From Aequorivita echinoideorum (lineage in GTDB: Bacteria; Bacteroidota; Bacteroidia; Flavobacteriales; Flavobacteriaceae): a stretch of DNA of 64,000 nucleotides. The notes under the pieces are model-generated. The model was not told where the DNA came from. It searched no databases and saw only the letters and a program-made list of their open reading frames with translations. How positions within the stretch are numbered: position 1 is the first letter of the stretch; each line of letters begins with the position of its first letter. The DNA is taken from contig NZ_JAHCTB010000004.1 in NCBI RefSeq assembly GCF_018476645.1, positions 1-64,000 of the forward strand, given 5' to 3'. The position numbers and the translations under genes are program-made. Positions 23,845 through 49,516 of this stretch are shown here, in pieces.

Positions 23845-24340
23845 ATCAATCAACAATCAACAATCAACAATCAACAATTAGCAATTAGCAATTAGCAATG
23901 AACAATTAGCAATGAACAATTAGCATTTAGCAATCAACAATAAACAGAAAAAATCGTGCCTCCAATCACCAATCGTACATCGTATATCGTACATCATAAA
24001 TCAATAATAGACAATTAGCAATCAACAATAAACAGAAAAAATCGTGCCTCCAATCACCAATCGTACATCGTAAATCGTGCATCCTAAATCAATAATAGAC
24101 AATTAGCAATCAACAATAAACAGAAAAAATCGTGCCTCCAATCACCAATCGTACATCGTACATCATAAATCAACAATCAACAATCAACAACCAGCAATGA
24201 ATAATTAATAATGATTGATTAGCAATATCAATAAAACATATTAAATCACACATCACACATCACACATCACACATCACCCATTCCACAACTTAAAACTTAA
24301 AACTGAAAACCGAGAACCGACAACCCACAACCAACAACCC
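23845..24340 (-). repeat. Heptamer-periodic repeat region with an 88-bp triplicate
   Basis: This 496-bp stretch has no gene. It is built from imperfect 7-bp units such as AACAATC, AGCAATT, ACACATC and AAAACTT. Within it an 88-bp block carrying AACAGAAAAAATCGTGCC occurs three times (starting 23943, 24031 and 24119). The array ends exactly at the stop codon of the minus-strand T9SS gene (24341). Confidence 0.85.
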
Positions 24341-26407
24341 TCATTCCCGCACCACCTTCACGGTGGCCACCGCCCCGGCACCGTTCTTCAGGCGCAGCAT
24401 ATAGAAGCCGCTTTGCAGGGCGGAGGTGTCGAGGGTATTGTTGCCCTGTTGCAGGCGGCCCTCCATCAGCCGCTTCCCGCCCAGGTCGTAGAGCACGTAG
24501 TCCATCGGCTCTTGGGCATCTATGTTCAGGGCCCCGCCCACCGGGTTGGGGTAGAGGCTGAAGCTGCCTTTTTCCAGCACGTCCGTTGCAAGACCAAAGG
24601 GGTCTATCAGGCTGCACCAGGTGTCGTGGCCGCAGGCGTTGTATGCGGTCACGCACACCCAGTGTTCCCGTGCCTCGGTAAAGGTGTGGTTAATAGTGTT
24701 TGTGGTGGTGGTCTGCACCGTCCCGTCGTCAAAGCCCCATTCAAGGGTATCGTAGTCCATCGTACCGGTATAGGCAAAGTCCACCGTCCCGCCGGTGCCG
24801 GTGTGCGCGTAGGCCGCCTCTGGCAGGGCGCAGCCGCAGTTGTCCGCCCCGGCCTTTACCAGGAAGTAGTCGGTGCCAACCCCGTAGTGCACGTTGGTCA
24901 GGGTATCGCCGCCGGCGAACATCCTGCCCTGGAACTCCCCGCCAATGTAGGTATTGCCGCGCCTGTCGGTGGCAATGGCGGTGGGGTACTCGGCGAAGCC
25001 TCGGTTGCTGGCGATGCTGTCCATGCTGATGATGGCGCCCGTGCGGGCGTCAAAGCGCGCGAGGTAGGCATCGTAGCCGCTGTTGGGGTCAAGGGGAAAG
25101 GAAAAGCCGCCCCAAGTAATGCCGGCATGGCTATTAGCAAATTCAATGATATTGCCGTTGAGCGCTATGGATTGCTTTAGGGAAACACTGTTGTCCGCAA
25201 CGGCGTGCGTGCCGGTAATCAAATTCCCGTAACTGTCCATTTTTAACAGGACGGGAAAAGTACTATAATTAAGCCCATGCCCAGTATAGCCGTTAAAAAT
25301 TACACTTGGATAAGTAGGGCTGTTATCAAAGATGCCTGCCAGATAGATATTACCTTGGCTGTCTATTTGGGGCTTCTCATCAAACCTATTGGATATTGGG
25401 GAAATACCTGCATTTCCCTGCTTCAGCCACGTACTGTTCCCCAGGCTGTCGAACTTGGCAACGAACAGGTGGCTGTTCACCAGTTGCCCGCCTATCCACA
25501 GGCTGTCCTCATAACTACCTCTTGGAGTCGTGTTGTACCCAGACATATAGTAGGATTTGCGCACGGGGTCGTGGTTTATCTTGGGCGCGAAGCCCCCCCC
25601 GAAATCGTTCTCCAGTTCCATGTCCAGCTTGATATTGCCCAGATAATTGTCCTGTGCGTCATACCTCAGGATATAGTCCCCGGGGGAAAGCGTGTCCCCC
25701 TCCGCCACGGGAAAATAGTCAGTCCCCTGGGCCGTGTAGTTCCTTGCCTGTATATAGAGGTGCTGGTCGCCATTGGGGTCTACCATAAAGTCGAACAAAT
25801 TTGTTGTCCAGGAAGTCTCCATTATATGTATGCTGTCCTGCTGATAGGTCCTAAGGTTTTTCATCGTTCCCAGGGTATCGTATTTTACGAGATAGGCCCT
25901 TTGCTTGTATTTCCGTTCGTTGGCGGAATACGGGATGATGGTATCGGTGTCAAAACGGGCCCGGTACTCGGTTCCAAAGACATCCTTGGTGGCCGGAAAT
26001 ACTCCCGCCGTAATATATACATGGCCCAGGGTATCGGTCTCCACTCCCAGGATGCGCCCATCCAGGCTGCCGCTCACCAGCTTGCTCCAGCGGAAGTTGC
26101 CCTCGCAGTCGTAGCTCATCAGCAGCCCGCCGGTGGCGTCCCGCCGCACGTTGCCAAAATTGTCGCCCGGGAAGTGGAAGTCCAGCGTGGTGCCGTCCAC
26201 GCTTAGGTTGTCCCCGCCAATGTTGGACACCATATATACGTTGCCGTTGGGGTCTGTGGCCATGTCCACTACCTCCTCCCTAAAGGCGGTGCCGTTCTGT
26301 TGGGTCGATGCGCTGCCGCCGCGCTTGGCCCACTGCCAGGGCTGTTGGGCAAGGGTCAAGAAGGGCAATGATAGCAATACTATAAATAGGCTTAATTTTG
26401 TTTTCAT
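24341..26407 (-). CDS. T9SS-sorted surface protein, tandem paralogue A
   Basis: The start at 26407 (MKTKLSLFIVLLSLPFLTLAQ) gives a standard signal peptide. The 688-residue protein has an SBBP/propeller-like body with repeated DPNGNVY, DTLGHVYITAGV, DSQGNIYLAGIF and DRRGNTYIGGEF units. A PKD-like WGFDDGT domain and a C-terminal type A sorting domain follow, with YPNPVGGALNID, YDLGGKRL and LQSGFYMLRLK. T9SS would export it and anchor it or release it at the surface. It is visibly GC-rich against its AT-rich surroundings. The N- and C-terminal parts are almost identical to the next gene while the centre differs. Confidence 0.85.
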   Translation of the reverse strand: MKTKLSLFIVLLSLPFLTLAQQPWQWAKRGGSASTQQNGTAFREEVVDMATDPNGNVYMVSNIGGDNLSVDGTTLDFHFPGDNFGNVRRDATGGLLMSYDCEGNFRWSKLVSGSLDGRILGVETDTLGHVYITAGVFPATKDVFGTEYRARFDTDTIIPYSANERKYKQRAYLVKYDTLGTMKNLRTYQQDSIHIMETSWTTNLFDFMVDPNGDQHLYIQARNYTAQGTDYFPVAEGDTLSPGDYILRYDAQDNYLGNIKLDMELENDFGGGFAPKINHDPVRKSYYMSGYNTTPRGSYEDSLWIGGQLVNSHLFVAKFDSLGNSTWLKQGNAGISPISNRFDEKPQIDSQGNIYLAGIFDNSPTYPSVIFNGYTGHGLNYSTFPVLLKMDSYGNLITGTHAVADNSVSLKQSIALNGNIIEFANSHAGITWGGFSFPLDPNSGYDAYLARFDARTGAIISMDSIASNRGFAEYPTAIATDRRGNTYIGGEFQGRMFAGGDTLTNVHYGVGTDYFLVKAGADNCGCALPEAAYAHTGTGGTVDFAYTGTMDYDTLEWGFDDGTVQTTTTNTINHTFTEAREHWVCVTAYNACGHDTWCSLIDPFGLATDVLEKGSFSLYPNPVGGALNIDAQEPMDYVLYDLGGKRLMEGRLQQGNNTLDTSALQSGFYMLRLKNGAGAVATVKVVRE

Positions 26408-26419
26408 AAGCAATAACAA

Positions 26420-26631
26420 TATTCAATCAACAATTAACAATTAACAATTAGCAATCAGCAATGAATAATTAATAATGATGATTAGCAATATCAATAAAAC
26501 ATAGTAAATTACACATTACACATTACACATTACACATTACACATTACGCATTACGCATTACAAATCACACATTCCACAACTTAAAACTTAAAACTTAAAA
26601 CTGAGAACTGACAACCAACAACCGACAACCC
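26420..26631 (-). repeat. Heptamer-periodic repeat between the T9SS paralogues
   Basis: This is non-coding sequence of imperfect 7-bp units: AACAATT and AGCAATC types on the left, about five ACATTAC copies in the middle, and AAAACTT and GACAACC types on the right. It ends at the stop codon of the next minus-strand gene (26632). The order of unit types parallels 24190-24340, so it was duplicated along with the gene. Confidence 0.85.
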
Positions 26632-28692
26632 TCACTCCCGCACCACCTTCACGGTGGCCACCGCCCCGGCACCGTTCTTCAGGCGCAGCATATAGAAGCC
26701 GCTTTGCAGGGTGGAGGTGTCCAGCACGTTTGCGCCGCGCCCTAGGCCGCCCTCCATCAGCCGCTTCCCGCCAAGGTCGTACAGCACGTAGTCCATCGGC
26801 TCTTGGGCATCTATGTTCAGGGCCCCGCCCACCGGGTTGGGGTAGAGGCTAAAGCTGCCTTTTTCCAGCGCGCCCGTTGCAAGACTAAAGGGATCTATCA
26901 GGCTGCACCAGGTGTCGTGGCCGCAGGCGTTGTATGCGGTCACGCACACCCAGTGCTCGCGCGCCTCGGTAAATGTGTGGGCAATGGTATTTGCGGTGCT
27001 GGTAAGCACCGTGCCGTCGTCGAAGCCCCATTCCAGGGTATCGTAGTCCATCGTGCCGGTATAGGCAAAGTCCACCGTCCCGCCGGTGCCGGTGTACGCG
27101 TATGCCCCCTGTGGCAGGGCGCAGCCGCAGTTGTCCGCCCCGGCCTTCACCAGGAAGTAGTCGGTGCCCACGCCGTAGTGCACGTTGGTCAGGGTATCGC
27201 CGCCGGCGAACATCCTGCCCTGGAACCTTCCGCCCACATAGGTGTTGCCGCGCCTGTCGGTGGCAATGGCGGTGGGGTACTCGGCGAAGCCTCGGTTGCT
27301 GGCGATGCTGTCCATGCTTAGGATGGCGCCCGTGCGGGCGTCAAAGCGCGCGAGATAGGCATCGTAGCCGCTGTTGGGGTCAAAAGGAAAGGAAAAGCCG
27401 CCCCAGGTGATGCCGCCGTGGCTGCCCGTAAAGGATATCCTGTCACCCGCCAAGCTTAGGGAGGGGGTCGGGGATTCAGAACTGGTACTCGATGCGTTGA
27501 CACCATAAATCAGGTTGCCGTCGGCATCCATCTTGACGATGACCGGAAAACTTCTATTGGTCGGGACCTGGGGCGTAAACCCATTGAATGTTGTCTGTTG
27601 GCTATTGGTTTGGTTAAATATCCCTGCCAGATAGATATTTCCTTGGTGGTCAATCTGTGGCTTGCTGTCAAACCTATTGGATTGCACTATACCTGGACTT
27701 CCCTGCTTCAGCCAGGTGCTGTTGCCCAGGCTGTCGAACTTGGCCACGAACAGCGGGCTGTCCACCAGTTGCCCGCCTACCCAAAGGCTGTCCTGGTAGG
27801 TGCCGGTGTATGGGGTGCTGTTGTAACCGGACATATAGTAAGCCTTGCGCACGGGGTCGTGGTTTATCTTGAGGTTGGACCCTCCGTAGTCTATCTCCAG
27901 TTCCATGTCCAGTTTGATATTGCCAAGATAATTGCCCTGCACGTCATATTTTATGATGTAATCCCCCACGGGGAGGGTATCGTTTTCCACTATGGGAAAA
28001 TAGGAGTTTCCGCTCCTCGCATCGTCATAGGCGTGGATAAGTAGATGCTGGGTTCCATTTGGATCCACGGCCATATCGGGAACAAGGATGGTCCTGGATG
28101 CCTCGGTCAGTGTAATGCTGTCGGGCTGGAAGGTATGGAATCTTTCCATATTTCCCAGGGTATCATAGCGAACCATATATATTTGCTGTTTGTATTTCCG
28201 TTCGTTGGCGGAATAGGGGACGATGGTATCGGTATCAAAACGGGCACGGTGCTCGTTGCCAAAGCCGTCCTTGGTGGCGGGAAACACTCCCGCCGTAATA
28301 TATACATGGCCAAGGGTATCGGTTTCCAAGGCTACGATGCGCCCATCCAGGCTGCCGCTCACCAGCTTGCTCCAGCGGAAGTTGCCCTCGCAGTCATAGC
28401 TCATCAACAGCCCGCCGGTGGCGTCCCTCCGCACGTTGCCAAAAAAATCGGACGGGAAGTGGAAGTCCAGCGTGGCGCCGTCCACTTCCAGGTTGTCCCC
28501 GCCAATGTTGGACACCATATATACGTTGCCGTTGGGGTCTGTGGCCATGTCCACCACCTCCTCCCTAAAGGCGGTGCCGTTCTGCTGGGTCGATGCACTG
28601 CCGCCGCGCTTGGCCCACTGCCACGGTTGCTGCGCAAGTGCCAAGAAGGGCAATGATAGCAGCACTATAAATAGGTTTAGTCTTGTTTTCAT
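26632..28692 (-). CDS. T9SS-sorted surface protein, tandem paralogue B
   Basis: The 686-residue paralogue of the preceding gene starts MKTRLNLFIVLLSLPFLALAQ. It has the same layout: signal peptide, SBBP/propeller-like body with DxxGNxY units, PKD-like WGFDDGT domain and a sorting domain (YPNPVGGALNID ... LQSGFYMLRLK). Residues 1-150 and about 430-686 are near-identical to the paralogue. The centre (about 180-430) is diverged, for example APRIVIG-type versus NYTAQGT regions. It is GC-rich and codes on the minus strand. Its function is unknown; surface exposure is inferred from the sorting domain. Confidence 0.85.
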   Translation of the reverse strand: MKTRLNLFIVLLSLPFLALAQQPWQWAKRGGSASTQQNGTAFREEVVDMATDPNGNVYMVSNIGGDNLEVDGATLDFHFPSDFFGNVRRDATGGLLMSYDCEGNFRWSKLVSGSLDGRIVALETDTLGHVYITAGVFPATKDGFGNEHRARFDTDTIVPYSANERKYKQQIYMVRYDTLGNMERFHTFQPDSITLTEASRTILVPDMAVDPNGTQHLLIHAYDDARSGNSYFPIVENDTLPVGDYIIKYDVQGNYLGNIKLDMELEIDYGGSNLKINHDPVRKAYYMSGYNSTPYTGTYQDSLWVGGQLVDSPLFVAKFDSLGNSTWLKQGSPGIVQSNRFDSKPQIDHQGNIYLAGIFNQTNSQQTTFNGFTPQVPTNRSFPVIVKMDADGNLIYGVNASSTSSESPTPSLSLAGDRISFTGSHGGITWGGFSFPFDPNSGYDAYLARFDARTGAILSMDSIASNRGFAEYPTAIATDRRGNTYVGGRFQGRMFAGGDTLTNVHYGVGTDYFLVKAGADNCGCALPQGAYAYTGTGGTVDFAYTGTMDYDTLEWGFDDGTVLTSTANTIAHTFTEAREHWVCVTAYNACGHDTWCSLIDPFSLATGALEKGSFSLYPNPVGGALNIDAQEPMDYVLYDLGGKRLMEGGLGRGANVLDTSTLQSGFYMLRLKNGAGAVATVKVVRE

Positions 28693-28725
28693 GGGTATAT
28701 GTATTTATTATTTATTTAAAATAAT

Positions 28726-31700
28726 TCATTGGTAAAAGACCGTACGTGTTTCCTCCCGTAGTACCAGCAGGTAGGTGCCATTGGCAAAAGGAGACAGATC
28801 CAGTGGGGTGCTTGCGCTATTTAAGTTCAAGCGCTCCCTTTTTATTTCCCTTCCATAGAGATCATAAATATACACTATAGCATTGGTTCCCTGAATAGCT
28901 TCGGCAGTATGGCTAAGCTGTACCACGCCGGTGGTGGGGTTGGGTGCTACCGTATATTTTTGCGCTCCTCCGGTTTCCGTTTCTTCACCATTCGTTGGTC
29001 TATGGGATCCGGTAGGGCAAGCTGGAAAATTGATGGAAAAATCATTAAGGCAGGTAATCCCTTGATCCGGTCCAGTAGAAGTTAGGGCAAAAGATACCAT
29101 TCCGCCAGCAAAACCAGCTGGGGGATAAAATTCCATATTAGCCACGGTTACCCCTGGGGGTAAGTATCCACCTCCCGGAACCATCACCCCGCTATTGGTT
29201 AAATTATTGATGGTATATGAAATGGAGCTATGGTTGCTTATATCCAGGGTAAGGGTATAATAACAGTTTCCAAACCCATCTATCATGGGCTGTAGGTTCA
29301 ATACACGTAGTATAATGTCGCAATCCTGGCAACGTTCGGCGAGTTCCCAAGAAAACCCTTGGCTCAAGGTATTGCAATAACCATTATCCAATTGCAATTG
29401 GTATAGGCCATCCCCACTCCAAAATTGGTTTGGCATAATCCCCATCCCTGAATTGATGTTGTTGCTATCCACTTGCCATTCCCAAGTAAAAGGAATAATG
29501 GGCCCCGTAACATAATAATCACTTACATTTTGTTCGCATACTTCATAACAGCCTTGAGGATAGGCCCAGATATAGGCCTCCGGATTTTGGGGTACATCTA
29601 TTTCTTTACTGCTGCTGCACCCTTGGTCGTTTATAAAGGTTACTCGGTAAGGACCTCCATGGGTTACTTGAATAATATTCCCCGTTTGCCCATCGCTCCA
29701 TAAATAGATGCCCGGTTCATTGGCTCTTGCATCTAATTCTACGGTATAGGGCTCGCATTCCAAAATGGCAATGCTTACCTCAGGGGCATCGGGCAATGGG
29801 TTCACCGTAATATCATAGCTGGTGGTAGCACTGCAGCCTGCAAGTGTGGTTACTGTCAAGTCATAGGTATAATTTCCGGGAGTGATAAGGGTCTGGTCTA
29901 TTACCGCTATATCATCCCATTGGGGCAAGGGTTGCCCGTCCAGTTCCCAACTGTATTGGTAGTTGTTTTCAAAAACAGGATTGGCGTGCAACTGGAAGGG
30001 TGTTTCGGCACACACTTCAAGGGGTCCATTTATTACGGCATCCGGCGTTTCCAAAAATGCTACTGAAATTCGGCTGATGCCGTACTGTACACAACCATTG
30101 TTATCCACCCCATCCAGTATATAAATACCGGGTTGGGTGACGGTTATGTTATTTACTGTTACTGGAGTTTGTTGCATACTGACTATTACACCATTGACTT
30201 CCCGTTTCCATATATGTGTTGTCACATTACTTGATTGACCAAGCGGTGGACTATATGTAATGGTTATTGGATTCCCCGCACACGCACTAGGTGGGCTGAG
30301 GTCCAAAGAACCATCCATATTGGGGGCGTCAATAGTAATGGCATGGCTTACTGTGGTACTGCAGCCAAGGGCGTTGGTTACTGTTAATATAACATCCTTT
30401 TGCCCTACAGAGAAGTTGCGTATAGGATTTAGTAAGGAATTTAATGCTCCATCGTCAAAATCCCATTCATAGATAAGGTTGGGGTCATTAACGGTAGCCG
30501 CAAAGGGCACTGGCTCCCCTGCGCAGGCCTGCAACGGCGCAACGATAGTGGCGGTGGGAAAATCGGGCAAGGTTATGGTTAGGCTCGTGGAGCAAGCGGC
30601 GTACCCAGAACCAGAGATATCCAGCCCCAGGGTATGGTTCCCGGGCGTTAAGTTGGGTACTGTTATTTGTGGTAAGCCTTGGGGCGTACCGCTCCCTACG
30701 TTTACCCCATCCACAAAATAGGTAAGGCTTTGTATGGGGGTGGTGGGAAAATAATCGGAGGCTTCATAAATGGTTACATTATAGCCATTCCCGGCAGTAT
30801 TGCATATAATACTGTAGTCTAGGTTTGCTTCATAGGGGACAATGAATTCTTCCACAGCTACAACGGCATCGCTACAAGGGTTTCCGTATATGTCTATTGT
30901 TGCATAGACTTCACTATAATATATCCTATGTATTCCTACTCCACTCACCGTAAAGTTTGCAGTAGTGGCGGTTTGTCCCGTAAGTTGGTTTCCGTCCACT
31001 TGCCAGTGGTAGGATAAGGGGGTAGTACCAGAATTATTTACAGCAGTAGCGGTATAGGCGTTACATCCGGTATTGGCTAAGGGAGTATTTATGGTGGGTG
31101 GTAGTTCGTTTACCATACAATCATCATCAATATTGCAATTCTCCTCCCTTACGTAGACTATATTCGTGGTATCCGTACAGCCATTGGCACTTTCAACCAC
31201 GGCATAATATTGCCCAAACTGGGTAGCGGTATAGGAGGTAGTCATAGGGGGTAGGGCTGGGGAAATCGAGGATCCGTTATAAAACCATTCAATTGCTATA
31301 GCGGTGGCATAATTGCTGTCCAATATTAGGTTTAGGGTAGGTGGATCTGTTGCCAATGCTCCAGCACTGCAATAGTTGTGGTTGAGTGCGGGCGTTAAGT
31401 GTGCCAACGGTGCAGGCTGCACTTGTAAACTAAAAGTTGCAATAGCATTGTTTAGGCAACCATTGGGTTCTGTTACCGTTACCTGTACTATATAATTGGT
31501 GCCAATGGGGCTTAAATTATCGTAAATATGGGATGTATTCGGACCAGTGGCGGTACCGCCATCCCCAAAATTCCATGTGATGGTGTTCCAAGAGGTCAGG
31601 CCATTAATACTGAAATTAACAACCTCGTCCCGGCACACGGTATTGGGCGCGTTGATGCTTATGGGTACGCTAGGCTCGATGACCACTGGAAACTGTTTGA

Positions 31701-33642: not shown

Positions 33643-33749
33643 TGTTTGATTGGCTAGTGTTGATAATAGTTGAAAATTTTTTGTAATATATGAAATATAA
33701 TTAAATATCATAAATATTTGTTAACGCCCTAATCCAACCCCAATCATGT

Positions 33750-34020
33750 CAGTTCGAGTGTTTTTCACGAAGCGGAGCAAGTGAAAAATGTATCGAGAAC
33801 CGAAGTGTTTTCACGAAGCGAAATCAACTATTAAAAAAGCCTGTGCTGAGCTTGTCGAAGCATATCGAGAACCGAAGTGTTTTTCACGAAGCGAAATCAA
33901 CTATTAAAAAAGCATGTGTTGAGCTTGTCGAAGCATATCGAGAACCGGAGTGCTTTTCACGAAGAGACAGCAACTACTAAAAAGGGCTGTGTTGAGCTTG
34001 TCGAAGCATATCAAGACCCT
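33750..34020. repeat. 72-73-bp tandem repeat (about 3.5 copies)
   Basis: The unit contains CACGAAGCGAAATCAACTA, then a GAGCTTGTCGAAGCATATC segment and AGAACCGAAGTG. The TATCGAGA motif starts at 33791, 33863 and 33936 and, with one change, at 34009, giving spacing of 72-73 bp. The GAGCTTGTCGAAG core is a common dispersed Bacteroidota repeat. Open frames through it are not genes. Confidence 0.8.
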
Positions 34021-34039
34021 GATGATCCCAATTTAATCA

Positions 34040-34194
34040 AAAGCCAACAGCCATCAGCTAAAAGCCAAAGGCTAACAGCCAAAAGCAAAGGCCAAAAGCC
34101 ATCAGACAACCAATAACTTACAACCAAGAACTAAAAAAAGAACCCACAACCGACAACCGACAACTGACAACCGACAACCGACAACTGAAAATCA
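34040..34194 (-). repeat. Heptamer-periodic repeat ending at a stop codon
   Basis: The array starts with imperfect 7-mers (AAAAGCC, AACAGCC, ATCAGCT types), then runs of AACCGAC/AACTGAC from 34141. It ends at the stop codon of the minus-strand gene at 34195. It is non-coding and continues the 7-bp phase for about 150 bp. Confidence 0.8.
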
Positions 34195-34857
34195 TCAACC
34201 AAAAACCCCCAATACCTCAACTCCAACTCCGTCCTTACCTAAAGAAGGATATTCCTCTTTCCCCAAAACCTCCATAAATCGGATGCTGATAAGGGGCAAA
34301 TAAAAACAATACTCTTCCCGCCTTATTGCGGATTCCAGATGTATGTGAACATGCTGGATTACATCTCTTTTCGAGAATCGTAAAGGTGCGCTATCGTAAG
34401 TAACAAAACTATTTTCCTGCACATTGTAAACCACTAAAATGTATTGGAGGTCAAAATGCGTAGCGCCCTTGGGAAATTTTGCCTTACTTGGAGCAAGAGC
34501 TTTCCACTCCAGCGAAAAATCTGCATCATGAATCAGTGGATTCCCAAATTGTTGACGGATACCCACTTTTGGGGTAAATACAAATTCCCTTAAAAGTTGT
34601 TTGCCTTTTAAGGTTTTAAGGCCTTTTCCCACTAGCCTATGTTCTGTCGCCCCACCGCTGTCCAAACTTTTAATTTTCATAAACAATGCCATCAAGCGTT
34701 GATGCAGAGTCCCATCATTTACAAACTGTAATATTGGATAAAGAGCAATTTTAAATTCTTTTACAAACTTGCTACAAAGTGATAATTCATCACTGTGCTT
34801 GTAAATTCTGGGATTATTTTTATTATTTTCGTAGTTGAATCCTCCCATAGTACACAC
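34195..34857 (-). CDS. Uncharacterised Bacteroidota protein
   Basis: The 220-residue protein starts MCTMGGFNYENN; the second Met (34848) is an equally good start and better matches relatives that open M..IGGF. It contains RENNAEFGR-family-like parts (ENNKNNPRIYKHSDELSL...) and a long mixed C-terminal half, with no signal peptide, membrane segment or catalytic motif that I can see. Similar proteins are common in Bacteroidota without assigned function. It is flanked by two repeat arrays, with the 11-bp phased repeat 55-110 bp upstream. Confidence 0.6.
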   Translation of the reverse strand: MCTMGGFNYENNKNNPRIYKHSDELSLCSKFVKEFKIALYPILQFVNDGTLHQRLMALFMKIKSLDSGGATEHRLVGKGLKTLKGKQLLREFVFTPKVGIRQQFGNPLIHDADFSLEWKALAPSKAKFPKGATHFDLQYILVVYNVQENSFVTYDSAPLRFSKRDVIQHVHIHLESAIRREEYCFYLPLISIRFMEVLGKEEYPSLGKDGVGVEVLGVFG

Positions 34858-34972: not shown

Positions 34973-35180
34973 TCAACTCCTAGGATACTCTCACGATGCT
35001 ATATAGATACTGTCACAATCAAAGAACCCGGCCATAGCTCTAAAGCTGAATGGCCAATGGAGAACCTCAAACAGAAAACAGATAATCGCCAACCACCCTA
35101 AATTATTGAAAACGAACAATTGGGAATGCCCTGTCATTTCGAGCGTTTTTCAAGAAACGGGGCAAGTAAAGAATGTTGAT

Positions 35181-35260
35181 AACAGACAACAGACAACAGA
35201 CAACAGAGAACAGGCAACAACTAACCCACAACAGATAACTGATAACCATCAACCACCCTC
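35181..35260. repeat. AACNNNN heptamer array
   Basis: About eleven consecutive 7-mers each start with AAC (AACAGAC three times, then AACAGAG, AACAGGC, AACAACT, AACCCAC, AACAGAT, AACTGAT, AACCATC, AACCACC). No gene is supported. From 35261 to 35565 only AT-rich sequence with no recognisable element is seen. Confidence 0.8.
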
Positions 35261-36024: not shown

Positions 36025-36034
36025 TATATTATTC

Positions 36035-39295: not shown

Positions 39296-39457
39296 TAGCA
39301 TTAGAAATAAATTTTATATCTGATTGATTTCAGAATTTTTGTTTTTTGAAATAGCAAATAGTAATTAAGGAATAACAAATCTTCATAACTTTTAGAGTTT
39401 CGTTCCTTTGAAAGTTATTATTTTTACAATTCGAAAATTTTCTTGAAGAATTATATC

Positions 39458-40420: not shown

Positions 40421-40442
40421 AGCGGTAAAAAGATTTAAAATA

Positions 40443-40478
40443 AAAACCCTTTCAAGCAATTTTGAAAGGGTTTTTTAT
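40443..40478 (+). terminator. Bidirectional terminator after trxB
   Basis: AACCCTTTCAA (40445-40455) pairs with TTGAAAGGGTT (40462-40472), with A and T runs on the two sides. It serves trxB and the convergent lipoprotein gene. Confidence 0.88.
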
Positions 40479-40497
40479 TGGCTTTAAAATGAATCTT

Positions 40498-40947: not shown

Positions 40948-41016
40948 ATCATTTAGTTTTTTGTTTTTGAAAAGGTAACAATTCACTTAAATGACCCACG
41001 TTAATAATTGTTTAAA

Positions 41017-41057
41017 ATGAAAAAAACCTAACAAAAGTTTAGCTTCTATTAGGTTTT
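41017..41057 (-). terminator. Terminator after the head-GIN gene
   Basis: AAAACCTAA (41023-41031) pairs with TTAGGTTTT (41049-41057), with a T-run on the minus strand. Confidence 0.75.
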
Positions 41058-41090
41058 GCCAGTAAAGGATGTGCCATGCAATCGATAGCT

Positions 41091-41810: not shown

Positions 41811-41826
41811 AAAGATTGGTTTTAGG

Positions 41827-43581
41827 TTAATCAATTGTTATTGTGGTTGTTACTTTTCTTTTTGAATTTGAAGTTTTTGAATTTCTGAAATCTTCCCTTA
41901 CTTCCCTTTCCCAATTATTTTCATCTTTGGGCGATTCATATTTTATTGAATCCGTTTTTTGAAGCGAATCCCCTTCTTCCCAAGTTTCCATTTCTTCCTC
42001 GCAATCCAAACATTCATTTTCATTTTTCAGAATGCGGAAGTAGTGCGAATCATTGTTCCATTCCACGCGGCTGTCATAAGGCGAACGATCCAAATAATAG
42101 GAAGAGATGGTTTCATCCGCATTCAATACCGCGCCTTCTGGCAGATACAGTGTGATTTCAATCTGCTGGTCGCGATATTTGTTTTTGGTTTCGGTGATAA
42201 AAAATCCGTCCAAGGTCAAGGTTCCATTCGCAAGATTGAATTTGTATTCAATAGCCTCGGCACGTTCCCTTGCATCCAGGGAGTTATTGCCCTGCGCCAT
42301 TTTTTCAATCACCATTTTACCAATGGAATCTTTTGTGGATTTAACTTCGACCAAAATATCATTGGAGAAAATAATTCGCTCTTTTTCAGAATTTATTTTA
42401 ATTTCCAAACCATTGTCGCGGCGCATATTGTAACCGTACTGTTTATCTGAACGCATTTCCACTTTTAAGGTGTCGCCCGTACGTACGGGAATGGAAGTTT
42501 CCTCAATAAAGTTTCCATCGTACGCCTGTTCCGTGGCCTGTTTTATACCAAGAATTGCCAACCCAATTACGGACAGTGCCCAAAGAACTATGAGCGAGAT
42601 TTTGACAGTGGTACCCATAGGTTTTAGGTTGCTTATCAACAATTTTAAGCCGAGGATGAACAGGACAAAAAATGGGATTCCAATTGCAAAGAAAAAGAGT
42701 AGGGCAATGAGCCACATGGGGAAATTGGTGGTATCTATCATTGCGATGGTTTCGGTAATTTCGTTATTTCCCCAAAAGTCAATGGAACCAAAGGTAAAAA
42801 ATCCGATTACCAAACTGATGAGCGTCAAGAGCGAAACCAAGATAATGAGCACGCCCAAAAACTTCACAAATACCCGAAACAGTGTAACTATTAAAGTACC
42901 CAAGCTATCAAAAAAACCACCGGCTTCTTTTTTTACGCGGCGACCATATTTATCATAATCCGCATTTTTGAACTTATCCGCCACATTGTCAAAACCCTCC
43001 TTGAATTTTTTTTCAATATTTGAAATATTGATGGGCTCGCCGGTCATCTTCAGTTTATCTGAAGTGGTAATCGCCGGCGGAACCAAGATCCAAAGAAGAA
43101 TATAAACTACAACGGGTGAGCCGAAACCAGCTACTATCAATAGCACCCAAAGCAAACGTATCCAAATAGCGTCGATGCCAAAATAATGCCCCAAGCCAGA
43201 GGAAACCCCAGAAATATATTTGTTGTCAATATCCCGGAATAACTGTTTGTGCGTTGCGTTGCCACGAGATTTGGCATAGGAATTTCCGGTAGGGGGCGTA
43301 TCTTCAAAAATTTCATCGTCCACCTCATAATCCTCGGGTTGGCCCATTACCGCGATTACTTCATCCAGAATCTTCAATGTGACCACTTGTGTGGAATTTT
43401 CAAGTTTTTCAGAAAAAAGTTCTGCAATACGGGTTTCAATATCCTGCATAATCTCTTCACTTCCATCAGCACCTTTTAGCGATCTCTTAATGGCGTCCAG
43501 GTAGCGTGAAAGTTTCCCAAAGGCATCTTCATCTATATGAAAGGAAGTGCCCGCCAAATTTATGTTTACTGTTTTGTTCAT
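41827..43581 (-). CDS. PspC-domain membrane protein
   Basis: The start at 43581 (MNKTVNINLAGTSFHID) follows the PadR stop with a 4-bp overlap. The 584-residue protein begins with the HIDEDAF/LSRYLDAIKRSL segment typical of these flavobacterial proteins. The PspC domain follows (RDIDNKYISGVSSGLGHYFG then DAIWIRLLWVLLIVAGFG, a membrane pair), then several further membrane segments and a large C-terminal periplasmic domain rich in Glu/Asp. PspC-like proteins sense or respond to envelope stress; PadR control is likely. Confidence 0.85.
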   Translation of the reverse strand: MNKTVNINLAGTSFHIDEDAFGKLSRYLDAIKRSLKGADGSEEIMQDIETRIAELFSEKLENSTQVVTLKILDEVIAVMGQPEDYEVDDEIFEDTPPTGNSYAKSRGNATHKQLFRDIDNKYISGVSSGLGHYFGIDAIWIRLLWVLLIVAGFGSPVVVYILLWILVPPAITTSDKLKMTGEPINISNIEKKFKEGFDNVADKFKNADYDKYGRRVKKEAGGFFDSLGTLIVTLFRVFVKFLGVLIILVSLLTLISLVIGFFTFGSIDFWGNNEITETIAMIDTTNFPMWLIALLFFFAIGIPFFVLFILGLKLLISNLKPMGTTVKISLIVLWALSVIGLAILGIKQATEQAYDGNFIEETSIPVRTGDTLKVEMRSDKQYGYNMRRDNGLEIKINSEKERIIFSNDILVEVKSTKDSIGKMVIEKMAQGNNSLDARERAEAIEYKFNLANGTLTLDGFFITETKNKYRDQQIEITLYLPEGAVLNADETISSYYLDRSPYDSRVEWNNDSHYFRILKNENECLDCEEEMETWEEGDSLQKTDSIKYESPKDENNWEREVREDFRNSKTSNSKRKVTTTITID

Positions 43582-43916
43582 TTTGTGTTTTTTTCGCTGG
43601 TTACTTTGTTTACGGCCTGTTGCAATTCTGCCCAAGTCTCGTTCAATTCGGTTAAAAATACCTTTCCGGTATCTGTAAGTTCATAATACTTTCGTGGCGG
43701 CCCACTTGTGGATTCCTCCCAACGGTAGGAAAGCAAACCTGCATTTTTAAGGCGGGTAAGCAACGGGTAAATGGTTCCTTCCACCACCAGCATTTTTGCG
43801 TCCTTCAAGGTTTCCAGAATGTCTGATGTATATGCCTCGCCGTCCTTTAGGACAGAAAGTATACAGAATTCCAGAACTCCCTTCCGCATCTGCGCTTTTG
43901 TGTTTTCAATTTTCAT
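43578..43916 (-). CDS. PadR-family transcriptional regulator
   Basis: The 112-residue winged-helix repressor has an opening KGVLEFCILSVLKDGEAYTSDI and a core EGTIYPLLTRLKNAGLLSYRWEES, followed by the PRKYYELTDTGK wing. It lies in a four-gene minus-strand group with 4-bp overlaps on both sides, so it probably autoregulates the PspC/GIN operon in response to an unknown ligand. Confidence 0.93.
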   Translation of the reverse strand: MKIENTKAQMRKGVLEFCILSVLKDGEAYTSDILETLKDAKMLVVEGTIYPLLTRLKNAGLLSYRWEESTSGPPRKYYELTDTGKVFLTELNETWAELQQAVNKVTSEKNTK

Positions 43917-44098
43917 TTTGTGTAATTAATTGTTCGTAAATCCTGTTCGTTTTTGATGGTTGGCAAACTTGCAATGGTTGTTACAACTTCTTCGCATTGA
44001 TTAGGTGCGAAGTGCAATTTTGCTTCAGTTTTTACTGGTGTTACCACGCTCAAAAACTGAAGAATTAATGCCAGTATGTAATTAACTATGGTGCTCAT
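43913..44098 (-). CDS. Small protein in the PadR/PspC operon (61 aa)
   Basis: The 61-residue protein has a hydrophobic N-terminal segment (residues 4-21, possibly a signal) and a short polar C-terminal part. It overlaps the DUF4870-like gene by 17 bases and the PadR gene by 4. No family is recognised; coding support comes mainly from the overlapping operon context. Confidence 0.5.
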   Translation of the reverse strand: MSTIVNYILALILQFLSVVTPVKTEAKLHFAPNQCEEVVTTIASLPTIKNEQDLRTINYTK

Positions 44099-44582
44099 TT
44101 TCTGGTTGTGTTAAATAGTTCGTTTTTATAAAAGGAATGCTCAACGGATACTTATAAACTGAACCTTTTGCGGCATGCATGGTTGCATTTACTACAGCGT
44201 AGAGTTCAAATATGAATAGTGCCAGAAGCAATAGAATTGCCAAACCGAAAAGAATTAAATATCCTGAAAGGTTTTTAAAATTCTGAAGTGAGATATGGGT
44301 TGAAGTACTATTTATGGTTTCCATCAACGAGACGAAATCTGTCGCAAAAATGATGAAGAACGGAACACACAATAGCCCTATGGATAGAGTATAAATTAAA
44401 ATACTCAACTGAAAATTGATGGCTTGCCTACCGTGCTCATCCACAAAAGCCTTTTCTTTATTGAAAGTCCAAATCAATAATGGCGCAAAGAAATTTGCGA
44501 AGGGAAAAAAGTATTTCAAAAATGTAGACAAGTGAATGAAAGCGCTTGTATTTTTCTCGGTTTCTGATAATGTAGTGTACAT
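44082..44582 (-). CDS. DUF4870-family membrane protein
   Basis: The 166-residue protein has four membrane segments and the motif PLLIWTFNKEKAFVDEHGRQAINFQLS, which identifies the DUF4870/TIC20-like family. It is the first gene of the PadR/PspC/GIN operon. Function unknown. Confidence 0.85.
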   Translation of the reverse strand: MYTTLSETEKNTSAFIHLSTFLKYFFPFANFFAPLLIWTFNKEKAFVDEHGRQAINFQLSILIYTLSIGLLCVPFFIIFATDFVSLMETINSTSTHISLQNFKNLSGYLILFGLAILLLLALFIFELYAVVNATMHAAKGSVYKYPLSIPFIKTNYLTQPENEHHS

Positions 44583-44713
44583 AGCTTGTTATTTTCTTAT
44601 GCAAATATATGTCCTAAAGACAGTATTATGTTACGCATAGTACAAAATATTAACTTTTTTTTAACTTTTTGATTGTAGTTGAATTATTGAATATCTTCGT
44701 GAAAAGCAAATCG

Positions 44714-45169
44714 ATGAAACTCAATCCCAGTAAAATCAACACCTTTCTTTTTTTCAAACTGCCCTCAGCGTATCTAACGGGAGTCCGGGTAAAATCCATT
44801 TCAGAAAAAACGTGTATAACAACGGTCAAACATCGCTGGATAAACCAAAATCCATTTAATTCAATATTTTGGGCGGTGCAGGGTATGGCGGCAGAACTTA
44901 GTACCGGGGCTATGGTAATGGCCGCTATTCAGCAGAGTGATAGAAAGATTTCGATGCTGGTAGCGAATAATAGAGCAAGCTTTTCAAAAAAGGCGAAAGG
45001 GCGAATTCACTTTACGTGCAACGATGGACTTTTGATCAGGGAAGCAATTGAAAAAGCCGTAGCAACAGGGGAAGGGGAAACGTGCTGGATGAAAGCTGTA
45101 GGAAGAGATTCTTCTGGGGATCAAGTTTCCATTTTTGAATTTGAATGGACTGTAAAAGTGAAGGACTGA
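44714..45169 (+). CDS. DUF4442 (hot-dog fold) protein
   Basis: The start at 44714 (MKLNPSKINTFLF) is an ATG; upstream in-frame positions offer only TTG. The 151-residue protein has the VKHRWINQNPFNSIFWAVQGMAAELSTG core of the YiiD/DUF4442 hot-dog group, related to acyl-CoA thioesterases. Catalytic function is not proven for this family. It is a single gene divergent from the DUF4870 operon. Confidence 0.82.
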   Translation: MKLNPSKINTFLFFKLPSAYLTGVRVKSISEKTCITTVKHRWINQNPFNSIFWAVQGMAAELSTGAMVMAAIQQSDRKISMLVANNRASFSKKAKGRIHFTCNDGLLIREAIEKAVATGEGETCWMKAVGRDSSGDQVSIFEFEWTVKVKD

Positions 45170-45245
45170 GAATATATTCCTTTGAAAATTTGTAACAAAA
45201 AAATCCTATCTACAACCAATTAAAATAACAAAATCTAAAATTACT

Positions 45246-46046
45246 ATGAATGCACACGAAATAGATTATACCATTTATGGTGAGGAAATGCAATATGTGG
45301 AGATAGAGTTGGACCCGCAAGAGGGCGTAATTGCCGAGGCAGGCAGTTTTATGATGATGGAAAACGGAATAAAAATGGAAACCATTTTTGGTGATGGCTC
45401 CGCACAGGACAATAGCGTGATGGGCAAGATTTTCGGTGCCGGAAAACGGTTGCTTACAGGTGAAAGTTTGTTTATGACTGCATTTTACAATACGGTTCCG
45501 GGCAAGAAGAAAGTAAGTTTCGCTTCTCCATACCCCGGCAAAATAATGGCTTTGGATTTATTGAATTTCAACGGGAAATTTATTTGCCAAAAAGATGCGT
45601 TTTTATGCGCGGCGAAAGGTGTGTCCATTGGCGTGGAATTTTCCAGAAGATTGGGTCGCGGCCTTTTTGGCGGAGAAGGTTTTATCATGCAAAAACTAGA
45701 GGGAGATGGGATGGCATTTGTGCACGCTGGTGGAACCACCGCCGTGAAGCATCTTGGAGCAGGGGAGCGTCTCAAGGTGGATACGGGATGTATTATAGGC
45801 TTTGAGCATACAGTGGATTATGACATAGAATTTGTGGGTGGAATAAAGAATACGATTTTTGGTGGTGAGGGATTGTTCTTTGCAACTTTAACAGGTCCTG
45901 GAAAAGTCTATGTGCAATCCTTGCCTTTTAGCCGATTGGCAAAGCGTGTTTGGATGGCCGCACCGCAAGGTGGCGGAAAGGATAAGGGAGAAGGAAGTAT
46001 ATTGGGCGGTTTGGGCAGCCTGCTTGATGGTGACAATCGATTTTAA
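45246..46046 (+). CDS. TIGR00266 / AIM24-like protein
   Basis: The 266-residue protein has the beta-helix-like AIM24 domain. Motifs are EIDYTIYGEEMQYVEIELDP, GEGLFFATLTGPG and GxxGxxG-rich strands, with a final Gly-rich GGGKDKGEGSILGGLGSLLDG. Family members in bacteria have unknown role; yeast AIM24 affects mitochondrial inner-membrane structure. It is a single gene. Confidence 0.88.
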   Translation: MNAHEIDYTIYGEEMQYVEIELDPQEGVIAEAGSFMMMENGIKMETIFGDGSAQDNSVMGKIFGAGKRLLTGESLFMTAFYNTVPGKKKVSFASPYPGKIMALDLLNFNGKFICQKDAFLCAAKGVSIGVEFSRRLGRGLFGGEGFIMQKLEGDGMAFVHAGGTTAVKHLGAGERLKVDTGCIIGFEHTVDYDIEFVGGIKNTIFGGEGLFFATLTGPGKVYVQSLPFSRLAKRVWMAAPQGGGKDKGEGSILGGLGSLLDGDNRF

Positions 46047-46176
46047 CACATTAGAATATGTTGTGAAAATATAAAAATCCATAAATAATGAGTATATTTA
46101 AAACAGTTTTAAATTAAAATATTTGCCTATTGCATAAAGCTACTTTACTCTAATTTATTTAAAACCTCAATTAGCT

Positions 46177-46374
46177 ATGGCAAGAGCAATGTTTGATTAC
46201 ACAAAAGCTGTGCTTGCAAAAGTAAGCTTTGACGCAAATCTGTTTTGCAAAGAGTTAAAAAAAGCGTTGACCAGATTATTACCTTACGAAATAGAGGAGC
46301 TTAAAATCTGGGTAGATTCGCTTATAAAACAAAACCCACAATTAAATCATTGTTTAGTTTATTTAAATCCATAA
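46177..46374 (+). CDS. Small conserved hypothetical protein (65 aa)
   Basis: The 65-residue all-helical protein (MARAMFDYTKAVLAKVSFDAN... IEELKIWVDSLIKQNPQL) is conserved in flavobacteria. It has a strong terminator 3 bases after its stop, supporting expression as a monocistron. No motif is recognised. Confidence 0.7.
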   Translation: MARAMFDYTKAVLAKVSFDANLFCKELKKALTRLLPYEIEELKIWVDSLIKQNPQLNHCLVYLNP

Positions 46375-46376
46375 AC

Positions 46377-46411
46377 AAAAATCCCTCTGATCCACAGAGG
46401 GATTTTTATTT
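46377..46411 (+). terminator. Terminator after the 65-aa gene
   Basis: ATCCCTCTG (46381-46389) pairs with CAGAGGGAT (46395-46403), then a T-run. Confidence 0.88.
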
Positions 46412-46449
46412 TAGAAGCATAGATATCGAAGAATTTTAATTTCTCGAAA

Positions 46450-47391
46450 TCACTTCTTTTTTACAGGACTTATAATTTTTACGTTATGAAAGGCGATTGC
46501 GCCACGGATTACTCCAGAAATTACCTCGTACAAAGCATTAATTACCTGCAATTTAAGTTCATTTACGCTGTATATTAGGCTTACCTCTCGCGCCGGGGAT
46601 GGCTCTGAAAAGTATTTAATATTCTTCTGAAGTTTTTCTGAAATATCTAGCGTGTGTAAATAGGGTAGAAGTGTCATGCCCAACCCTTCATTGGACAATT
46701 TGATTAGCGTTTCAAAACTACCGCTTTCCAGTTGGAATTTATCCTCTCCAGCAGCCTTTGAAGTTTTGCATAAATTGATAATTCCATCACGGAAACAATG
46801 CCCATCTTCCAAAAGTAAAATGTCATCTATATCCAAATCTGGAACCTCCAGTTTCATCTTTGACGAGAGCCGGTGGTTTTCTGGTATATACCCTACAAAT
46901 GGTTCATAATATAGCGGCCTTTCCTTTATTTTAGTGTGTTTTAAAGGTGTTGCGGCGATAGCGGCATCCAGATATCCGTCGTTTATCTTAGTGATAATTT
47001 CATCCGTATTCAATTCTTCAATCTTTAACCTTACTTTCGGGTATTTGTTTGAAAAATTCCTTAAAAACATTGGCAGAAGCGTAGGCATAACGGTGGGGAT
47101 TATTCCCAATTTGAAAACCCCGCCAATAAACCCCTTTTCAATATCAACAACATCCTGTAATCGCTCACTTTCCACAACAATATTTCTAGCTTGATTTATC
47201 AATTTTTCTCCGATTGCGGTTAATTGAACCGGCTTTTTGGAACGGTTAAAAATTAAAATATCCAATTCCTCCTCCAATTTTTGGATCTGCATACTAAGCG
47301 TAGGCTGGGTAACAAAAATTTGGTCTGCAGCTTTTGTAAAACTTTGATGTTCGGCTACGGCAAGAATATAGCGTAATTGTGTAATGGTCAT
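46450..47391 (-). CDS. oxyR: OxyR, hydrogen peroxide-responsive LysR regulator
   Basis: The 313-residue LysR protein has an N-terminal HTH (residues 4-60; SFTKAADQIFVTQPTLSMQIQKLE). The C-terminal sensor holds C199 and C208 in EDGHCFRDG and INLC, the same spacing and numbering as the redox pair of E. coli OxyR. Peroxide would form the disulfide and activate transcription of antioxidant genes. The katE gene in this window is a plausible target, though no site was seen. A TATTTTTG -7 element at 47409-47416 lies just upstream on the minus strand. Confidence 0.93.
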   Translation of the reverse strand: MTITQLRYILAVAEHQSFTKAADQIFVTQPTLSMQIQKLEEELDILIFNRSKKPVQLTAIGEKLINQARNIVVESERLQDVVDIEKGFIGGVFKLGIIPTVMPTLLPMFLRNFSNKYPKVRLKIEELNTDEIITKINDGYLDAAIAATPLKHTKIKERPLYYEPFVGYIPENHRLSSKMKLEVPDLDIDDILLLEDGHCFRDGIINLCKTSKAAGEDKFQLESGSFETLIKLSNEGLGMTLLPYLHTLDISEKLQKNIKYFSEPSPAREVSLIYSVNELKLQVINALYEVISGVIRGAIAFHNVKIISPVKKK

Positions 47392-47451
47392 AGTAGAAAA
47401 AATTTATACAAAAATAACATAATATAAATAAAGTTTATGGTATAAAAATAA

Positions 47452-47480
47452 AAAACCCGATGCTCGAGCATCGGGTTTTT
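47452..47480 (-). terminator. Terminator between the DUF2141 gene and oxyR
   Basis: AAAACCCGATGCT and AGCATCGGGTTTT (47452-47478) are perfectly self-complementary, with a T-run on either side, so it can act in both directions. Confidence 0.88.
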
Positions 47481-47499
47481 TATTTTTTTTAGCGTAAGC

Positions 47500-47928
47500 C
47501 TACATTCTTATCTCCATTTCAATGGGTTCATTTTTCACTTCAAATTTAGCTTCATTCCAAGCAGGAGGACCGTAGGACATAGCATTATTGGAAACACCGT
47601 AAGGTTCTTTGGGCATTCCATTAATTTCAAAATCCATTTGATTATTGTTATTCTTATCGTGGAAAAGAAGAATGGCGTAAGTCCCGGGCTGCACTCCGGT
47701 AAAAGTCATTACCGCCTTGCCGTTTTCAATTGTTCCCATTTTGCTCTGAATACCTTTTTGCATAAAGGTTTCTTCAGTTTGTAGCGTGGCAAGAATAGTT
47801 CCTTCAGAAACTGAAACCGGTACGGTGACCGTAATTGTGGTGCCACCTTCCGTTTGGGCGATGGTTTTTTCAGTTGGGAAAATTCCTAATGTGATTGCGA
47901 GTACGATGCTTGTGATGATTGTTTTCAT
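47500..47928 (-). CDS. DUF2141 secreted protein
   Basis: The 142-residue protein has a signal peptide (MKTIITSIVLAITLGIF). The DUF2141 core follows: beta-strand TITVTVPVSVSEGTIL..., VQPGTYAILLFHDKNNNNQMDF with the FHD...N..D motif, then PKEPYGVSNNAM. The function of this family is unknown; it is likely exported or periplasmic. A single gene. Confidence 0.85.
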   Translation of the reverse strand: MKTIITSIVLAITLGIFPTEKTIAQTEGGTTITVTVPVSVSEGTILATLQTEETFMQKGIQSKMGTIENGKAVMTFTGVQPGTYAILLFHDKNNNNQMDFEINGMPKEPYGVSNNAMSYGPPAWNEAKFEVKNEPIEMEIRM

Positions 47929-48029
47929 AATTTAGTTTTTAAGGTTTTTATTTCTGAGACAAATTTTTAAAAATTGTTCCAGTTACTCTAAAAACATTTT
48001 CCCAATTGTAGAATTTCGCAGATGAAATG

Positions 48030-49364
48030 TTATAACAAACCTCTCGCCTTAATTTCCAGATACTTATTTATGGTATTTACTGTCAAATTTTCCGGGGCGG
48101 TCAATATTGTCTGTATGCCGTATTTATGAAGCTCGTTTACAATTAATTTCTTTTCAAATATAAATTTTTCAGCAATGGTTTTTTCAAACACTTGATGCGT
48201 GGTCGTGGCTTTTTTTGACATAAATGACTTCAATTCGGTATTTTCAAAAAAGATGACCACCAGCAAATGCGTTTTGTTGATAGCCTGCAAGTAGGGTAGC
48301 TGCCTGTGGAGCGCGTCCATTGTTTCAAAGTTGGTATACAACAACAACAAACTACGTTGTTTTATATGTCTTTTTACATCAACGTAAAGACGGGAAAAAT
48401 CACTCTCGGCAAAGTCCGTTTCCACATTGTAGAGTGTTTCCAGAATCAGGTGCATTTGTGCCTTTCTACGCTGTGCAACCACCCTGTCCATTACTTTTCT
48501 GGAAAAGGTAAACATACCGGCCTTATCGTGTTTTCTTAGAACAATATTTGAAATTACCAGTGTAGCGTTAATGGCATAATCCAGCAAACTCAGATTGTTG
48601 AAAGGCATTTTCATGACTCGGCCTTTATCGATGACCGAATAGACAGGTTGCGATTTTTCATCCTGAAATTGATTTACCATTAGGCTGTTTCGCTTTGCGG
48701 TAGCTTTCCAGTTAAGGTTTCGCACGTCGTCACCTGTGGTATAATCCTTTATTTGTTCGAATTCCATCGTGTGGCCAATTCTTCTAATTTTTTTAAGACC
48801 AAAAAGTTTCAATTGGTTTGAAAAAGCCAGAAAATCATATTTTTTAAGCTGAAGAAAAGACGGATAATTGGGCACAATTGCTTCCGCTGAAAATTGCTGC
48901 CTGCGTGAAACAAGGCCTAGAATTGAAGAAGAAAAGACATTTAAATTACCAAAATGATATTCCCCACGTTCTGTGGGGCGCACGTGATATGTAAATTTCT
49001 TTTCTTCGGAAGTATTTAGAATCGCTTCAATCTTAAAATCCCGAAGTTGCCACTGCACCGGCAATTCATCAATAATTTTCAGCGAAACCTTAAATTTGAA
49101 TCTATTTACGATCCGTATTTCTATAGCGTTTTCATCTCCATTTGAAAGCTTATCGGGTAAAATACGCGAGGCTTGTATTCCCGTTTTGTTACGGTACAAA
49201 AGCAAAATATCGAAAATAAAAAGTGCGATGAAAATGTAAAAAAGCAGTTTGACGGCTCCAAACAATTCCTGGAAAAAATATGAAAGCACAAAAAACCCAA
49301 CAATCGTAAAAAGCACGGCAAAAAACCGTTTAGTTAGATATAAACTTTTGAGAAATTTTTTCAA
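48030..49364 (-). CDS. DUF58-domain protein of the MoxR operon
   Basis: The 444-residue protein has two N-terminal membrane segments, a central beta-rich part and a DUF58 domain with YTTGDDVRNLNWKATAKRN, then a vWA-like C-terminus. DUF58 proteins work with MoxR AAA ATPases in macromolecular assembly. It is the last gene of a five-gene minus-strand operon, separated from moxR by the (CATCAAC)n array. Confidence 0.9.
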   Translation of the reverse strand: MKKFLKSLYLTKRFFAVLFTIVGFFVLSYFFQELFGAVKLLFYIFIALFIFDILLLYRNKTGIQASRILPDKLSNGDENAIEIRIVNRFKFKVSLKIIDELPVQWQLRDFKIEAILNTSEEKKFTYHVRPTERGEYHFGNLNVFSSSILGLVSRRQQFSAEAIVPNYPSFLQLKKYDFLAFSNQLKLFGLKKIRRIGHTMEFEQIKDYTTGDDVRNLNWKATAKRNSLMVNQFQDEKSQPVYSVIDKGRVMKMPFNNLSLLDYAINATLVISNIVLRKHDKAGMFTFSRKVMDRVVAQRRKAQMHLILETLYNVETDFAESDFSRLYVDVKRHIKQRSLLLLYTNFETMDALHRQLPYLQAINKTHLLVVIFFENTELKSFMSKKATTTHQVFEKTIAEKFIFEKKLIVNELHKYGIQTILTAPENLTVNTINKYLEIKARGLL

Positions 49365-49425
49365 ACTTTTTTATTTCAATTTTAAAACTTTTGACTGCCC
49401 AGGGTAACATAAAAACTTTAATTTT

Positions 49426-49516
49426 CATCAACCATCAACCATCAACCATCAACCATCAACCATCAACCATCAACCATCAACCATCAACCATCAACCATCA
49501 ACCATCAACCATCAAT
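49426..49516 (-). repeat. Twelve perfect CATCAAC heptamers plus one imperfect
   Basis: Unit starts run from 49426 to 49503 in steps of 7, twelve perfect copies. A thirteenth, CATCAAT, at 49510-49516 touches the moxR stop codon (49516-49518). On the moxR transcript the units read GTTGATG. The array fills most of the gap between moxR and the DUF58 gene. Confidence 0.93.

Follow-up and report, generated by a model that had tools for sequence, protein, structure and literature searches.

The first 64,000 nucleotides of contig NZ_JAHCTB010000004.1 of Aequorivita echinoideorum (assembly GCF_018476645.1, forward strand; G000:C22:1-64000 in our numbering), hereafter the window, carry five tandem arrays with a repeat unit of seven nucleotides. 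An initial inspection of these letters, referred to below as the original prediction, described the arrays and read them as elements of the 3' untranslated region (UTR) anchored at stop codons. Analysis of the arrays in the 2.93-Mb genome (G000; 27 contigs) and in related genomes indicates a different rule, which is a polarity towards the gene edge irrespective of the direction of the gene. When an array is read 5' to 3' along its A+C-rich strand (the C/A strand), the 3' end tends to lie flush with the stop codon of an opposed gene or with the start codon of a co-oriented gene. Tandem Repeats Finder (TRF) confirmed the five window arrays, their 7-bp period and the units listed for them, reporting all but the last in several rows:

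23842-24339 (TRF 23847-24339), minus strand, compound heptamer array of AATCAAC, AATTAGC, ATCGTAC, ATCACAC, AACTTAA and AACCGAC types
26417-26630 (TRF 26424-26629), minus strand, compound heptamer array of CAATTAA, ATTACAC, AACTTAA and AACCGAC types
34038-34191 (TRF 34038-34200), minus strand, heptamer array of AACAGCC-like units, then AACCGAC types
35178-35246, no strand given, AACAGAC heptamer array in a divergent gap, flush with neither gene
49426-49515, minus strand, pure array of 12.9 copies of CATCAAC (TTGATGG when read along the coding strand of the adjoining genes)

As predicted, four of the five end at the stop codon of a minus-strand gene, at distances of 0-3 nt. The first array ends at 24339, 1 nt off a TGA (24341-24343), the second lies 1 nt off a TGA (26632-26634), the third 3 nt off a TGA (34195-34197), and the fifth directly abuts (0 nt) the TAA (49516-49518) of a moxR-type gene. 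The arrays at 24 and 26 kb are not independent, because similar genes precede both and they have sequence in common. In the divergent gap, distances of 373 and 329 nt separate the detected segment of the array (35178-35219) from the two starts. The genes next to the arrays are as follows:

24341-26419, minus strand, gene with a type IX secretion system (T9SS) C-terminal sorting domain (PF18962) and SBBP repeats, from Pfam
26632-28692, minus strand, gene with PF18962 and SBBP, the same Pfam domains as 24341-26419
34195-34857, minus strand, gene without a Pfam match; six other genomes of the genus carry relatives that are 54-63% identical
48030-49364, minus strand, DUF58 gene downstream of moxR, several relatives of which have an AACCTGA-type array before the start codon
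49516-50508, minus strand, gene for a MoxR-type AAA ATPase whose product is 90-94% identical to those of 13 named loci

The 13 named moxR loci comprise 12 labelled Aequorivita and one, L089, labelled only Flavobacteriaceae; L094 and L096 come next, at 82% identity. These identities place the host within Aequorivita or very close to that genus. Three further repeat or composition features accompany the arrays. A higher-order repeat of 88 bp (3.2 copies, 23927-24205) lies within the first array, and the two similar genes for secreted proteins with T9SS sorting domains (24341-28692) lie in the GC-richest part of the window (52-55%). Upstream of the third array in window coordinates, a 73-bp repeat that we take to be REP-like (resembling repetitive extragenic palindromes) occurs three times at 33791-34016 with GAGCTTGTCGAAGCA and CACGAAGCGAA motifs, and a related piece is found near 35140-35175.

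Polarity was assessed in four data sets. The first, an own-genome sample covering 37% of the genome (1,084,000 bases), joins the window with 51 stretches, each 20 kb long, that come from five contigs. Genome G018 contributed 20 stretches (400 kb) and the single contig of G016 another 40 (799 kb); the fourth set consists of the 13 named moxR loci (257 kb). Genes were called with our own hexamer-based caller and not taken from annotation, with starts less certain than stops, and an array end was considered flush when it lay no more than 5 nt from a gene edge. Despite a coding fraction of about 90%, 139 of 157 arrays fell between called genes. Of these gap arrays, 51 had only the 3' end of the C/A strand flush (25 stops and 26 starts) and 11 only the 5' end (nine stops and two starts); both ends were flush in 12 and neither in 65. 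At the flush starts, the C/A-rich strand would lie on the transcript. Removal of 14 orthologous or paralogous rows (named-locus arrays by the shared ATGAGTCTC gene, and the second of the two similar window arrays) gave a reduced set of 125 arrays, in which the 3' end alone was flush in 44 and the 5' end alone in 11 (p = 8.7e-6). The effect is carried by the own genome (3' versus 5', 20:0) and G016 (11:2); G018 supports it partly and the named loci do not. Restriction to arrays with strong skew yielded 14:0 for the own genome, 7:0 for G018, 5:1 for G016 and 1:2 for the named loci.

Placement of each of the 125 arrays uniformly at random inside its own gap served as the chance model. The 3' end was within 5 nt of the stop in 28 of 53 cases (6.0 expected; maximum of 12 over 2000 random runs), which bears out the prediction that array ends meet stop codons beyond chance. 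The 3' end was also enriched at starts, where 28 of 72 were flush and 13.1 expected, and starts are met as frequently as stops among the polar arrays (26 versus 25). Stop-specific anchoring is therefore ruled out as the full rule, and the proposed stop-codon or 3' UTR element was not borne out. These counts also bear on a neutral origin, in which microsatellites expand freely and tolerance depends on orientation, arrays being purged where their sequence would introduce start codons ahead of a gene or leave no stops behind it. The concentration of arrays in spacers and their change by whole units fit such a model. Purging should nevertheless create a deficit at the wrong end, yet the 5' end is at chance level (20 of 70 stops, 16.0 expected; 3 of 55 starts, 3.1 expected) and it is the 3' end that is in excess, and we consider this explanation quite unlikely.

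The 3'-end excess persisted across four detection settings and three tolerances. Under the strictest setting at 5 nt, 63 arrays gave 21 flush 3' ends, 17 at stops and 4 at starts, versus 4 flush 5' ends, so that long arrays favour stops. Arrays of period 6, 8 and 9, numbering 30 in all, gave ratios of 2:3, 3:1 and 1:0, which are too few for comparison. Where neighbouring arrays of opposite orientation share a gap, the G/T-rich array is on the left and the C/A-rich array on the right in eight of eight pairs, such that both C/A-strand 3' ends point outwards to the genes; 20 further pairs have a single orientation. These pairs, and the arrays outside the genus, were collected with a looser array threshold than the 139 gap arrays. 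In G024, a member of another family of the same order from which 16 stretches were picked around AAC matches with genes disregarded, 20 gap arrays gave a polarity of 9:0 when filtered for skew and of 9:1 when unfiltered, and nine more arrays lay within called genes or at contig edges. In 66 loci of other genera, mostly Chryseobacterium and mutually orthologous, the ratio was 28:2 of 58 arrays, or 9:1 of 19 after crude de-duplication.

Some of the paired arrays resemble one unit inverted (L186, L180, L033 and, by eye, L266) and others do not. By eye, the L266 gaps at 2770-2846 and 3771-3847 each combine a G/T-rich arm with a near-complementary C/A-rich arm, a potential long hairpin.

To our knowledge, no known DNA or RNA enzyme meets stop and start codons in mirror image. 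A coding edge is visible to selection but not to DNA enzymes, and a rule that holds at two edges and on either strand consequently favours a directional process combined with purifying selection over a signal that recognises stops. The best explanation, which we put forward tentatively and rate a little short of an even chance, is a DNA-level repeat process with polarity that is stopped by purifying selection at functional sequence. The non-coding heptamer arrays occur throughout the genome and grow, shrink and switch unit, often in whole 7-nt steps, as comparison of close species shows. Under this proposal, the advancing end would be the 3' end of the C/A strand, equivalent to the 5' end of the G/T strand, moving across non-functional spacer and halting where going on would disrupt something functional, be it a stop codon, a start codon or perhaps a terminator. 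One possible step is that the nascent C/A-strand 3' end slips back and re-copies one unit repeatedly, whereby adjacent spacer might be overwritten.

Several observations at the gene edges support a selection-halted process. Arrays run into stop codons, extending into or past the stop at 12 of 29 flush stops, and the gene at 34195-34857 is closed by an array-like GGTTGA that supplies its last codon and stop; the last residues of its relatives vary. Terminator-like hairpins within 10 nt were found at five 3' ends and at none of the 5' ends of the 139 arrays, which is likewise supporting. The starts of divergent gaps count in the same direction, because promoters should lie there: 27 of 50 arrays in tandem gaps and 1 of 22 in divergent gaps were flush with the start (p = 4.7e-5), or 15 of 34 and 1 of 15 when free space was limited to 20-300 nt (p = 0.018).

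The same edges could be kept flush by selection for an RNA-level function, in which an unstructured C/A leader aids initiation while a G/U tail behind the stop serves termination, RNA stability or the binding of proteins. The enrichment of C/A before starts and of G/T after stops is consistent with this possibility, as is the array before the ATGAGTCTC gene, which keeps its position across the named loci while its copy number varies and which has a start-proximal TACTGAAA in 8 of 13 of them. Translational regulation has also been proposed for TAACTGA repeats just before starts (MacGregor, 2015; PMC4679880). An RNA role would, on the other hand, require two separate functions for one two-edge rule, and would have to accommodate 50 distinct dominant heptamers among the own-genome arrays and the variation of unit, copy number and presence among close species at one gene. 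Flush arrays are moreover nearly absent before divergent starts, though both genes there need leaders; the median free space in the limited set is larger in divergent gaps (123 versus 73.5 nt). Taken together, we regard the RNA-level account as rather unlikely.

Period 7 predominates among the short tandem repeats of the own-genome sample. Within its 1,084,000 bases, 42-nt windows with at least 75% self-similarity numbered 1805 at a shift of 7, versus 77 at 8, 7 at 6 and 29 at 9; shift 8 aside, other shifts up to 30, multiples of 7 excluded, gave 0 to 45. Five AACs at a spacing of 7 occurred 121 times in this sample and never at spacings of 5, 6, 8, 9 or 10. This AAC pattern was present in all 23 further genomes from the genus and in 76 of 148 genomes of the phylum, the own genome included (50 of 83 genera). 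The phylum-level count has only the backwards pattern as its control, which likewise matches many genomes because arrays contain CAA too. In the single contig of G016, matches to the AAC pattern numbered 571 on the minus and 38 on the plus strand; GC skew there was too noisy to decide on a replication-strand rule. A quadruplex cause of these arrays is ruled out by the occurrence of the motif in 0 of 51 polar arrays; 3 of the 139 gap arrays contain it.

Comparisons between relatives show turnover of the arrays inside the genus, frequently in steps of whole 7-nt units. The gap between the moxR stop and the DUF58 start has species-specific content when inspected by eye: L089 and L095 have AACCTGA-type arrays ahead of the DUF58 start, L083, L088 and L091 have short G/T-type repeats behind the moxR stop, L084 has no visible array, and the Ulvibacter locus L096 has TAGTGAG repeats. 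The final moxR codons are IPR-stop in the window and all 13 named loci, though the sequence past the stop differs. As a separate observation, a second, longer-period repeat of ATTCTTGAAGTGAAAGATG and GTGCAAGACCCAATTCCGAAG types fills the gap past the moxR stop in L086 (10993-11404) and L092. Of 45 array gaps drawn from four close genomes, 23 were comparable in at least two genomes, some gaps being entered twice. An orthologous array differed by 14 nt in length between L086 and L090, and further gaps differed by 14 or 28 nt; a few were identical and others were unlike throughout. Unit variants were also swapped, as in an orthologous gap with 17 GTTAAGT in one genome versus three GTTAAGG and one GTTAAGC in the other.

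Such turnover bears on a telomere-like origin, in which a broken spacer would be chewed back to the gene edge and G/T heptamers would extend its 3' ends before the break is rejoined. Its appeal is geometric, since the outcome would be two head-to-head telomeres and the G/T strand does leave each gene edge in the 5' to 3' direction; array purity is also slightly higher away from the gene. The resolved orthologous gaps change unit by unit, however, and Ku (PF02735), present in 12 of 39 genomes, was not found in the own genome, G012 or G024, all of them array-rich. Ku-dependent end joining is thereby ruled out as a requirement, and telomere-like addition in general appears very improbable.

A number of results weigh against a selection-halted, directional process. 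Polarity is weak in G018 (10:5) and absent from the named moxR loci (3:4) in the set of 125 arrays. An advancing front should be the purest part of an array, and for this reason it is unfavourable that, of 44 arrays of at least 56 nt, the 3' end was less uniform in 26 and more uniform in 12 (p = 0.034). No overwriting was caught in the gaps of close species, where the resolved differences were whole-unit changes; some spacers differ wholesale, e.g., an array in G005 versus an unrelated palindrome in G023. Promoter-like elements received no support as stopping points (0 at the 3' end versus 2), and none of 25 tRNAs had an array within 80 nt, which leaves no tRNA edge to judge. In the other-genera loci, period 7 is the commonest of several (92 arrays, versus 66 of period 8 and 63 of period 6), at looser settings.

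Should the arrays prove to be fronts that selection brings to a halt, they would provide a natural map of where function starts, and they could donate stop codons and terminal residues to genes. Otherwise, spacer repeats would have an orientation-specific role in gene expression. It is the polarity across many units and at both gene ends that separates a DNA-level process from regulatory readings based on single units. A broader proposal, that bacterial heptamer arrays of any unit spread one way and that their C/A-strand 3' end overwrites spacer up to indispensable sequence, is conceivable but in our view rather doubtful. Were it true, flush ends would show where functional sequence begins, a single strand-asymmetric process of replication or repair would cover the repeats of Flavobacteriia, Xanthomonas and Nostoc, and quadruplex or regulatory accounts of repeat position would become unnecessary.

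Short tandem heptamers in spacers are familiar from cyanobacteria as short tandemly repeated repetitive (STRR) sequences. A literature search of titles and abstract openings, in which subscription journals were thinly covered, returned no other report of a general polarity of heptamer arrays or of Flavobacteriia-wide arrays. Earlier work has already pointed out that heptamer repeats are over-represented in bacteria, and two relevant articles settle neither their length nor their position (PMC4679880; PMC4692102). As cited in these articles, the excess of 7-nt units among long simple sequence repeats was ascribed to polymerase slippage (Mrazek et al., 2007). The arrays described here resemble those repeats in showing an excess of 7-nt units in the genus, which is weaker in the other-genera loci, and in changing length by whole units between close genomes (14 and 28 nt); the descriptions in these two articles that we consulted give no rule of position or polarity for them.

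A further parallel comes from direct repeats of the unit TAACTGA, described in Beggiatoaceae, Cyanobacteria and five Bacteroidetes, including Aequorivita sublithincola (MacGregor, 2015; PMC4679880). They too are heptamers located mostly in spacers and mixed with other heptamers, and their indels between two close strains are mostly 7-nt steps, as in the whole-unit changes seen here. In that article they are often placed just before starts. They differ in consisting of one unit that lies, in the main genome studied, mostly before starts, whereas the present arrays form a family of units in which stops (25) and starts (26) are about equally represented among the 51 polar arrays. Among 100 listed matches in the own genome, one array (C20:95764-95836) consisted of rotated TAACTGA, along with many other units.

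A precedent for the polarity is provided by the GGGAATC and GGGGA(T/C)T heptamers of Xanthomonas and Nostoc, which lie nearer to the open reading frame (ORF) on their 5' side whatever the ORF direction, stop-codon overlap included (Rehm et al., 2015; PMC4692102). According to that article, these repeats are mostly transcribed, and quadruplex-based gene regulation was considered while their role was left undecided. The original prediction had held that a stop-anchored version in Bacteroidota was not known. That statement was correct in part: polarity with stop overlap (PMC4692102) and Bacteroidetes TAACTGA heptamers (PMC4679880) had already been published. Shared with the Xanthomonas and Nostoc repeats (PMC4692102) are the heptamer unit, the intergenic location, variation of length and sequence among close species, scarcity in divergent gaps and equal polarity; the placement of the 5' end of the G-rich strand near an ORF in either orientation recurs in our arrays (51 versus 11 of 139). 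The Xanthomonas and Nostoc repeats are G-rich and quadruplex-forming and occupy sites of reported increased stability, in contrast to the many, rarely quadruplex-like units found here. Both the kind of repeat and its polarity are thus already known from that work (PMC4692102), and the present analysis finds them with units that are diverse and rarely quadruplex-like.

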